From contig VBLN01000183.1 in the NCBI GenBank assembly GCA_005878685.1, positions 5,148 to 15,960 of the forward strand: a DNA stretch of 10,813 nt, written 5' to 3'. The translations under genes were made by a program, and so were the position numbers. This document shows positions 7,687 to 9,322 of the stretch, piece after piece. The number at the start of each line of letters is the position of its first letter. The first letter of the stretch is position 1. This DNA is from Deltaproteobacteria bacterium. Its GTDB lineage: Bacteria; Desulfobacterota; Binatia; UBA9968. The notes below the pieces were generated by a model. That model was given only the letters and a program-made list of their open reading frames with translations. It ran no database searches and was not told the DNA's origin.

Positions 7687-8163
7687 TTAAGCTTGCACTC
7701 TTATCTTGACCCGCTTGGTCTTCGCTTGTTCTGCCTTGGGAAGCGTCACTCGTAAGAGCCCGTCCTCGTAACGGGCTTGACCCCTATCAGGATTCACCTC
7801 GCAAGGCAAGGCTACCGCTCGCGCAAACGAGCCACAGCTCCGCTCAGAATACGAATAGTTTCTTTCCCGTTTCTCGTACGAGCGCTCCTTATTGCCTCTG
7901 ATCACGAGACGATCCTCAGTAACCTCCACCTTAAAGTCATTCTTGCCGAGGCCAGGAAGCTCGGCGATCACAATGACCTCATCGTCGGTCTCGCCAATAT
8001 CGACCGCAGGACCACCCGACTCAAAGACAGGCGGCAAAGAAAATCCTTCCTCATCCACGGGACTCCCTCTCCGCTTTGATAACCAACGATCAAATGCTCT
8101 GTTGACGTTTTCGCGTAATTGCATCAGGTTATTCTTCCACGAAGTAGGAACCAATTCTGCCAT
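7687..8163 (-). CDS. Small heat-shock protein, Hsp20/alpha-crystallin family
   Basis: This is an ATP-independent holdase chaperone that forms oligomers and binds unfolding proteins. It has 158 residues from MAELVPTSWKNN. An N-terminal region of about 50 residues is followed by the alpha-crystallin domain (about 52-142), with PAVDIGETDDEVIVIAELPG, VTEDRLVIRGNKE and the diagnostic ARYEDGLLRVTLPK. The tail ends VKIRVQA, where KIRV resembles the I-x-I/V anchoring motif. The frame extends 12 codons further upstream to 8199. The ATG at 8163 is chosen because AAAGGAGGTG lies 7-8 nt before it. That Shine-Dalgarno sequence is perfectly paired with an upstream CCTCCTTT, suggesting temperature-controlled translation. 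The gene lies upstream of the nuo operon on the same strand. Confidence 0.95.
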   Translation of the reverse strand: MAELVPTSWKNNLMQLRENVNRAFDRWLSKRRGSPVDEEGFSLPPVFESGGPAVDIGETDDEVIVIAELPGLGKNDFKVEVTEDRLVIRGNKERSYEKRERNYSYSERSCGSFARAVALPCEVNPDRGQARYEDGLLRVTLPKAEQAKTKRVKIRVQA

Positions 8164-8172
8164 AACCTTGCA

Positions 8173-8205
8173 CCTCCTTTTCAAATCTAAATTCCGCAAA
8201 GGAGG
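8173..8205 (-). promoter_or_regulatory. Candidate RNA thermometer hairpin covering the hsp20 ribosome binding site
   Basis: On the minus strand CCTCCTTT (8205-8198) is a perfect 8-nt complement of the Shine-Dalgarno AAAGGAGG (8180-8173), with a further G-U pair outside (8206/8172). The 17-nt interval can add a small GAAT/ATTT helix capped by TTAG, separated from the main stem by an internal loop. A hairpin that hides the ribosome binding site in the 5' leader of a small heat-shock gene is the known layout of ROSE-like and fourU-type thermometers. This one matches neither consensus closely, so its class is unassigned. Confidence 0.55.
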
Positions 8206-8228
8206 CTGAAGTTCGATTCGGTGTGGTT

Positions 8229-8334
8229 TTAGCTTACCTTCACCTCGATCTTCTTAGGCTTTGCCTCCTCTGCTTTTGCAAGATTCAATGTCAGAACACC
8301 GTGCAGACTAAAGTTAGCCACGACCGGCCCTTTG
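8229..8334 (-). pseudogene. 3' remnant of a second Hsp20 gene
   Basis: The last 35 or so codons read DKGPVVANFSLHGVLTLNLA and then KAEEAKPKKIEVKVS. This is the C-terminal end of an Hsp20 protein: the A-x-x-x-x-GVLTL beta-strand motif, a Lys/Glu-rich linker and the I-E-V anchoring motif. Upstream of about 8334 no frame gives the rest of the alpha-crystallin domain, so at least 100 codons are missing. The stump lies 65 nt upstream of the intact minus-strand hsp20 start, suggesting a former tandem pair. Its sequence differs from both intact copies in the window. Confidence 0.7.
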
Positions 8335-8451
8335 TCAAGAAGCACACACGAGCCCCTGCCCTCGCTCGATGTAGGGGGCCCACCAAGGCGGCTTCCTTGA
8401 CGCGCTGCAAGGTTGTGATTAGATTTTGTACGCCAAGGATGGAAAAAAGAA
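8335..8451. other. Non-coding stretch between hsp20 remnant and small membrane ORF
   Basis: I see no gene here. It contains a GC-rich segment (8351-8395), with CCCCT at 8353-8357 and AGGGGGCCCACCA at 8373-8385, and the breakpoint at which homology to Hsp20 ends. Its right part holds the promoter candidate listed separately. Confidence 0.5.
8397..8425 (+). promoter_or_regulatory. Candidate sigma70 promoter for the small membrane ORF
   Basis: TTGACG (8397-8402, 5 of 6 consensus) and TAGATT (8420-8425, 4 of 6) are separated by exactly 17 nt. The predicted start near 8432 is about 20 nt before the ATG at 8452, with AAGGAT in between as a possible ribosome binding site. Confidence 0.45.
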
Positions 8452-8697
8452 ATGAACATTTTCTTTTACATCTTTGTAGCGGTTGGCGGCGGGATCTTGG
8501 CTGCGATCCTGGCTATCACCCTGGTTATCTTCATCGTTAGCTTTGGAGGATGGCTGGCCACTTTGGTCCCATCGTTTAGAAAATGGAACAAAGATTCAAC
8601 CCTTCAAAGGCCGGCAGCTGCTGAGTGGATACAAAAGGCGGCCGCTTGCCAGCCCAAGAAAATTTCCAATCGCCTGTCGAACAATCCCTCTTACTGA
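8452..8697 (+). CDS. Small membrane protein of unknown function
   Basis: I do not recognise this 81-residue protein. Its N-terminal half (residues about 3-42) is strongly hydrophobic and glycine-rich (FVAVGGGILAAILAITLVIF), enough for one long or two short membrane spans. It then turns basic and polar (SFRKWNKDSTLQ and onward), with the C-terminus ending NRLSNNPSY. A promoter-like sequence with 17-nt spacing precedes it and AAGGAT lies 13 nt before the ATG. The tail looks less constrained than the hydrophobic part, so a truncated or spurious ORF is possible. It lies between divergent hsp20 genes, so a membrane-stress role can be guessed but not shown. Confidence 0.5.
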   Translation: MNIFFYIFVAVGGGILAAILAITLVIFIVSFGGWLATLVPSFRKWNKDSTLQRPAAAEWIQKAAACQPKKISNRLSNNPSY

Positions 8698-8830: not shown

Positions 8831-9322
8831 ATGAGAGCATTGGTACCGCGGAATCCCTTTCAAGAGCTGACCAACTGGCACAGGGACATTGATGATCTCT
8901 TTAACCGGTTCTTCCGGTCCTTCTTGGCTGATGAGGACCAGAAGGGCACGTTGCCTTTGGCCAATTGGTTACCCGTCATGGAGGCCTTCGAGAAAGACGG
9001 CCGGTACGTCATCCGTATGGATCTGCCGGGCGTAGATCCTAAAGAGGTGGAACTCTCTGTAGTGGAGGACTCCTTGATCATCAAGGGGGAGCGGAAGAAG
9101 ACCCAAGAGGTCAAGGAAAAGGATTATCACTACAGCGAGACCGCGCACGGCAGGTTTGAGCGGAGCCTTGCCCTCCCAAAAGGAGTGGACAAGGACAAGA
9201 TAACCGCTCGCTATGAGCACGGCGTCCTTGAGATCTCCATGCCGCTCCCTGAAGAAGCGGTGGCGAAGAACGTGCCGATTGAAGTCAGCGGTAGCGAACC
9301 CAAGCAACTCCGGGCAGCCTGA
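8831..9322 (+). CDS. Small heat-shock protein, Hsp20/alpha-crystallin family
   Basis: This is a second holdase chaperone of 163 residues. The N-terminal part has an amphipathic FQELTNWHRDIDDLFNRFF segment (residues 10-28), typical of bacterial class A Hsp20. The alpha-crystallin domain runs from about 48 to 138 with FEKDGRYVIRMDLPGVDPKE, DSLIIKGERK and ITARYEHGVLEISMPLP. The C-terminal VPIEVSG carries the I-E-V anchoring motif. The ATG at 8831 is chosen because AAAGGAGG lies 8 nt before it; the GTG at 8822 would leave no spacing to that site. Unlike the minus-strand copy, I find no strong complement hiding the ribosome binding site. It is followed by its own terminator. Confidence 0.96.
   Translation: MRALVPRNPFQELTNWHRDIDDLFNRFFRSFLADEDQKGTLPLANWLPVMEAFEKDGRYVIRMDLPGVDPKEVELSVVEDSLIIKGERKKTQEVKEKDYHYSETAHGRFERSLALPKGVDKDKITARYEHGVLEISMPLPEEAVAKNVPIEVSGSEPKQLRAA

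Follow-up and report, generated by a model that had tools for sequence, protein, structure and literature searches.

The hspC locus

The window, by which we mean the whole stretch of 10,813 nt that was analysed, carries on its minus strand a gene for a small heat-shock protein, hspC, whose product matches the Pfam HSP20 domain (E = 1.2e-20) and whose leader features are collected with the gene itself in Table 1. The first-pass annotation of this DNA had reported an exact complement of the Shine-Dalgarno sequence (SD) of the minus-strand hsp20 gene at a distance of 17 nt, and the coordinates confirm it. The eight Watson-Crick pairs between the SD and the anti-SD arm are joined by one G·U pair into an unbroken stem of 9 bp, as judged from sequence and fold. 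The small inner helix that the annotation had called AU-rich is present in the minimum-energy fold, although the term is a loose one for four weak pairs, of which one is C-G, two are G·U, and one is A-U. The plus-strand hsp20 gene of the window (ATG at 8831), which had been proposed as an internal contrast, holds up in that role: its SD is the same as that of hspC (AAAGGAGGTG), and complements to it within 160 nt do not exceed 5 nt. The 3′ end of 16S rRNA was absent from the 16S pieces found in this genome.

Table 1 Features of hspC and its leader in the window
Feature	Position	Strand	Basis and remarks
hspC, small heat-shock protein gene (HSP20 domain)	7687..8163	-	Open reading frame; ATG at 8163
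Shine-Dalgarno sequence AAAGGAGG	8173..8180	-	Sequence and pattern match; 9 nt 5′ of the hspC ATG
17-nt loop with weak 4-pair inner helix	8181..8197	-	Fold
Anti-SD arm CCTCCTTT, perfect complement of the SD	8198..8205	-	Sequence
3′ relic of hspB, ending HGVLTLNLAKAEEAKPKKIEVKVS	8229..8339	-	Translation; stop at 8231-8229
Competing arm GCAGAGGAGGC in the relic	8263..8273	-	11 bp with 8206-8196; would free the SD
Relic arm facing the SD-AUG spacer, AUG and next codons (8172-8155)	8277..8296	-	Predicted pairing
Candidate hsp20-type promoter in the relic	8311..8338	-	TTGACA 8338-8333, spacer 16, TAACTT 8316-8311

In the window, hspC has no hspA next to it and hspB survives as a 3′ relic, which on its own has no Pfam match and whose C-terminal motif is also found in the hspB of orthologous loci. 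The contig, C435 of the genome L076, is a heat-shock island adjoining lon, with two hsp20 genes on the plus strand and, on the minus strand, hspC and one more hsp20-like open-reading frame (MPPDLWELWIWQ...).

A candidate promoter within the hspB relic

The hsp20 leaders of relatives often carry the motif TTGACA-N11/12-GTGCTTAGNTTT at 44–90 nt before the start codon, and of 29 TTGAC sites at this distance 27 conform to it. This recurrent promoter of hsp20 genes in the class was seen, at 44–92 nt, in L003, L027, L029, L151, L154, L160, L163, L174, and others. TTGAC was present within 250 nt in 39 of 101 hsp20 leaders, compared with 16.75 expected from shuffles; these leaders represent 104 distinct genes minus three that lacked an SD or upstream sequence, and they take in E. 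coli ibpA and ibpB as well as a few doubtful matches. On a position weight matrix built from 24 promoter sites in other genomes, the candidate in the hspB relic scores 15.7 bits, while the training sites, each left out in turn, have a median of 21.4 bits with 14.0 bits at the 10% point. A site scoring as high occurs once in the 59 other contigs scanned (763 kb, both strands counted), which corresponds to about 0.0003 expected in 250 nt. The hsp20 promoter matches on C435 score 27.1, 24.9, 15.7, and 13.3 bits. A generic sigma-70 scan did not list the relic promoter, and the best rpoH pieces in this genome (145 and 131 bits, on neighbouring stretches of contig C451) fell below the cut-off of 323.

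From this candidate we infer that the hspC mRNA probably starts near 8304 and has a leader of about 141 nt. A transcription start downstream of 8198, which the annotation had named as fatal to its proposal, is not what the analysis in silico found: the predicted promoter lies upstream, which would place the complement inside the hspC mRNA. The TTGAC of the putative −35 element coincides with the conserved hspB codons (I/L)-D, with TTGACC at this place in L048 and L050, so the relic promoter may have arisen from coding sequence.

A second and stronger hsp20-type promoter match (8397-8426, plus strand, 23.4 bits) lies 5′ of a plus-strand open-reading frame at 8452-8694 that encodes 81 amino acids with a membrane-like N-terminus. 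Its product had no Pfam match and no relative in the other loci fetched, and it may be a small heat-induced membrane protein.

Occurrence of the SD complement

The SD complement was searched as the pattern CCTCCTTTN{4,34}AAAGGAGG, with the reversed pattern as the control. In the 3.79-Mb genome to which the window belongs, the pattern occurs at a single place, the hspC leader. Across 193 genomes, this one included, it was found at 12 places in 11 genomes, compared with 27 places for the reversed control, indicating that the SD-complement pattern as such is not enriched and is no commoner than chance. A start codon 3–13 nt downstream, opening a reading frame of at least 40 amino acids, was present at 8 of the 12 places, hspC included (ATG in seven of the eight), and none of the other seven looks like HSP20 when judged by eye.

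Measured over individual leaders, hspC stands out: its SD complement reaches 8 nt, compared with no more than 5 nt in any of the other 145 genes sampled from the same genome, and the same limit of 5 nt holds for the other 100 hsp20 leaders. A complement of at least 6 nt was thus found in 1 of 146 genes and in 1 of 101 leaders, hspC in both cases. By rough arithmetic, chance alone would give about 0.05 such 8-mers in the 41 hsp20 leaders whose SD is at least 8 nt long. When the 45-nt hspC leader was shuffled, the SD was equally closed in 2% of 200 shuffles; for 90 nt of leader extended by 25 coding nucleotides, the opening cost was equalled in 16% of 300 shuffles; and a 9-bp stem appeared somewhere in 19 of 100 shuffles of the 65-nt gap before hspC. 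The hspC complement is moderately unusual, and its rarity is not overwhelming.

The hspB-hspC gap in related genomes

Of the 148 genomes in the class, eight, among them the one that holds the window, have a clear hspC, with scores of at least 177 bits compared to at most 132 for the rest. A sample of 395 genomes drawn evenly from the phylum, with at most nine candidates scored per genome, gave two matches at E ≤ 1e-38, both already known orthologues, and scans of genome contigs and of viral contigs for further orthologues each returned one distant hsp20. A search with the hspC protein gave a 98% cluster, which is probably the window's own, and a relative (P0003) that is 77% identical over 89% of the query.

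The gene order hspA-hspB-hspC is kept in all seven other hspC genomes (L005, L046, L048, L049, L050, L051, and L052). In each of them, the hspB-hspC gap (49–89 nt) folds into a strong, GC-rich hairpin (a hairpin is present in this gap of the window, too), and the z-score of the gap fold is −2.57 or lower in five, −0.66 in L050, and −1.39 in L051. The hspA-hspB gaps of the same seven genomes have no stem longer than 6 bp and z-scores between −1.3 and 1.6. Two orthologues from one genus, L046 and L005, have perfect gap stems of 13 and 11 bp with unrelated sequences, which suggests that the hairpin itself, rather than its letters, has been kept. Its role in the hspABC operon is perhaps in mRNA processing or differential stability, and in L051 perhaps in control of the SD.

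In six of the seven orthologues, the main gap stem excludes the hspC SD. The exception is L051, whose longest stem (10 pairs, with G·U) includes the SD, and folding predicts a closed SD there (unpaired 0.01 in a 45-nt and 0.16 in a 60-nt fold). The gap sequence pairs more weakly with the SD in L048, L049, and L050 (SD unpaired 0.19–0.46). For L005 and L046, and for L052 in the 45-nt fold, the predictions leave the SD largely free. The partial closure in L048, L049, and L050 does not go beyond that of shuffled sequences (fractions 0.26–0.77, 45 nt). In L049, a fold of the gap alone pairs UUUU with the AGGA of the SD in a fourU-like stem of six pairs, and this pairing is lost when coding sequence is included (SD unpaired 0.79). 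The free-SD orthologues L005 and L046, together with the plus-strand hsp20 whose SD has no complement, are natural contrasts to hspC.

The exact SD complement was found in none of the seven orthologues, so that the pairing expected of a conserved regulatory RNA is not kept among them; no leader of a close relative, in which compensatory changes could show, was found. We also considered whether SD closure is common to hspC as a group, and this was set aside as not clear, since in local folds without coding sequence, run at two window sizes, a comparison of the eight hspC leaders with the other 93 hsp20 leaders gave one-sided p values of 0.19 and 0.05. Against the hspA and hspB leaders the values were 0.46 and 0.28, and correction by shuffles gave 0.71 and 0.44. 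In folds with coding sequence, four of the eight hspC were among the eight least accessible of the 101 hsp20 leaders. Closure of the SD may thus recur in hspC leaders; the exact complement is peculiar to the window.

Predicted folding of the hspC leader

Folding the leader at several temperatures, as the annotation had advised, gave a mixed outcome: the SD was predicted to be buried, but the hairpin did not melt up to 70 °C and the temperature trend of the long leader varied by energy model. For the SD hairpin alone, the unpaired probability of the SD is 0.055 at 37 °C and still no higher than 0.14 at 70 °C. Four energy parameter sets were used (Turner 2004, Turner 1999, Andronescu 2007, and Langdon 2018), and in the leader beginning at −90 all four kept the SD closed, with unpaired values of 0.01–0.05 at 37 °C and at most 0.09 at 60 °C. 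By one and the same method, the SD was unpaired at 0.10 in hspC, 0.14 in E. coli ibpA, and 0.09 in ibpB at 37 °C, and at 0.16, 0.16, and 0.22, respectively, at 60 °C. The opening costs of ibpA and ibpB are not above those of shuffles, 93% and 33% of which cost as much. Melting of the isolated hairpin was therefore rejected as a decisive test, as the two E. coli leaders also stay closed up to 60 °C, and the overlap of this yardstick with hspC means that such folding neither proves nor excludes a thermometer. Minimum-free-energy z-scores of the leader were likewise discarded as evidence, as they ran from −0.14 to −3.53 depending on the end points.

The predicted cost of opening the SD depends on where the transcript starts: at 37 °C it is 1.0–3.1 kcal/mol when the start lies between 8345 and 8275, and 4.0–7.3 kcal/mol when it lies between 8268 and 8212. 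Opening is cheaper in the longer transcripts because GCAGAGGAGGC, within the hspB relic, can pair with the anti-SD arm over 11 bp. None of 5000 shuffles paired equally well with the anti-SD arm, and an equally easy opening of the SD was reached by 1 of 3000 shuffles and by 37 of 3000 synonymous recodings of the relic; given the protein sequence, the chance of such a competing arm is about 1 in 80. When the relic was swapped for the natural hspB tails of six of the seven orthologues (L048 left out), the SD stayed closed in all six, at 7.0–8.3 kcal/mol, indicating that the competing arm is not conserved. The second relic arm in Table 1, predicted to cover the start codon, was matched by 41 of 5000 shuffles, and its pairing persists in three of the four parameter sets. 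In the long leader, opening the whole region from the SD through the AUG costs 7.6 kcal/mol, compared with a median of 6.9 in 93 hsp20 leaders.

With the Turner 2004 parameters, the long leader is predicted to pass from a closed form, in which the anti-SD arm pairs with the SD (probability 0.91 at 20 °C, 0.66 at 37 °C, and 0.26 at 60 °C), to an open form, in which the anti-SD arm pairs with the relic (0.06, 0.31, and 0.71 at the same temperatures). Andronescu 2007 gave the opposite trend, and under Turner 1999 and Langdon 2018 the open helix is mostly formed at all temperatures. Competition for the anti-SD arm is thus a robust prediction across the four energy models, whereas the direction of the temperature effect depends on the model. 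A clean thermoswitch, as suggested by Turner 2004 alone, was dropped as the main reading on account of this disagreement.

Comparison with known RNA thermometers

By sequence, the leader is neither a ROSE nor a fourU element, in agreement with the first-pass annotation. No match to the ROSE covariance models was found in the hspC leader at E values up to 10, with E. coli ibpA as a positive control at 100.4 bits (Rfam ROSE_2). Like the ROSE element of ibpA, the hspC hairpin precedes a small heat-shock gene and is predicted to close the SD to a similar degree, but its SD helix contains no mismatch and none of the non-canonical, heat-labile pairs expected of that type. A fourU element is defined in PMC4166951 by four U paired with AGGA. 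The likeness to the fourU of Salmonella agsA lies in a pyrimidine arm that pairs with the AGGA of the SD; the hspC arm (CCUCCUUU), however, has three U, and the AGGA faces UCCU, not UUUU, so that the arm (CCUCCUUUGC) offers no run of four U to the AGGA.

The Synechocystis hsp17 thermometer, as described in PMC4477652, contains an internal bulge (1x3) and its apparent melting temperature is 46 °C; replacement of the bulge by a C-G pair raised this temperature to 64 °C and abolished activity in the mutant. In comparison, the hspC SD helix is unbroken and without a destabilising bulge, and the hspC leader is probably longer. Structured leaders and intercistronic thermometers in operons of small and other heat-shock proteins are described in PMC4166951, with hspXYZ and groES as examples, so the kind of system is known and the hspC leader would be a variant of it. 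The Pseudomonas putida hspXYZ operon, as presented in the same source, shares with the relatives of the window three small heat-shock genes in a row and a structured gap before a downstream gene, but the gap hairpin of the hspABC orthologues mostly excludes the SD and the upstream genes are gone from the window. The E. coli cspA leader, which the same source describes as adopting mutually exclusive conformations, is like the hspC leader in its predicted alternatives. Expression of cspA is induced by cold; for hspC, the direction of any temperature effect differs between energy models.

Discussion

Given the conserved gap hairpin in relatives and the exact SD complement in the window, the best single reading, which we favour tentatively, is a lineage-specific translational brake on hspC exerted by SD pairing. 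Ancestrally, hspA, hspB, and hspC would have formed an operon in that order, with a hairpin between the last two genes. In the lineage of the window, the gap hairpin would have come to use the hspC SD as its 3′ arm, so that access of the 30S subunit would be held down, and the hspB relic would supply hspC with a heat-shock-type promoter of its own, starting transcription near 8304. An arm of the relic could then take the anti-SD arm away from the SD, and access to the SD would be set by the competition between the closed helix (anti-SD with SD) and the open helix (relic with anti-SD). Of the elements of this reading, the sequence, the gene order, the complementarity, and its single occurrence in the genome are observations, and the promoter, the start site, the structures, and the repression are inferences. 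Relief of the block by heat is possible. The proposal of an RNA thermometer on hspC survives in part, in that the gene encodes a small heat-shock protein and its SD is predicted to be buried; the exact pairing is missing from all seven orthologues, and the heat trend is model-dependent.

Following closely behind is the reading that hspC is controlled purely by transcription from an hsp20-type promoter, with the SD complement being a coincidence or a worn intercistronic hairpin of no regulatory role, and we regard this as a serious possibility that falls a little short of the brake. It draws support from the pattern counts, which do not exceed the control (12 vs 27 in 193 genomes), from other occurrences of the pattern, before genes that by eye lack the look of HSP20, from the ease with which shuffled gaps form a 9-bp stem (19 of 100), from the absence of the exact complement in the seven orthologues, from the group comparison of hspC leaders, which reached no clear significance, and from an SD-to-AUG opening cost close to the hsp20 median. 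What tells against a coincidence is that no other of the 146 genes or 101 hsp20 leaders has so long a complement and that this one falls on a heat-shock gene, a class in which working hairpins are known.

A classical thermometer of the hsp17 kind, in which the SD hairpin alone would be closed at growth temperature and melt on heat shock, appears unlikely. The occlusion of the SD is within the range of E. coli ibpA and ibpB, which themselves barely open by 60 °C, and the leader from −90 is closed under all four parameter sets. Set against this are the nine unbroken pairs, without bulge or mismatch, the slight opening of the isolated hairpin even at 70 °C, the loss of activity when the bulge of hsp17 was replaced by a C-G pair, as described in PMC4477652, and the competing arm that the predicted full leader contains. 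Strand exchange instead of melting, with heat shifting the leader from the anti-SD:SD to the relic:anti-SD helix, is improbable: the shift on warming appears under Turner 2004 and is reversed under Andronescu 2007, Turner 1999 and Langdon 2018 hold the leader mostly open throughout, and the pairing of the start codon by the relic remains in three of the four sets. We give equally little credence to the fuller version of this idea, a two-state switch built from the decaying neighbour, in which the relic would give the promoter, an anti-anti-SD arm, and an arm for the start codon, and the old hairpin would have captured the SD.

If the brake on hspC does not work, the locus would usefully caution against calling a thermometer from nothing more than a perfect SD complement 5′ of a heat-shock gene, as known thermometers such as those of E. 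coli ibpA and ibpB overlap ordinary hsp20 leaders in the computed measures. If the brake works, the hspC leader would show regulation at an early stage of its making, in which a broken paralogue has recently been turned into a promoter and pairing arms that serve the intact gene next to it.
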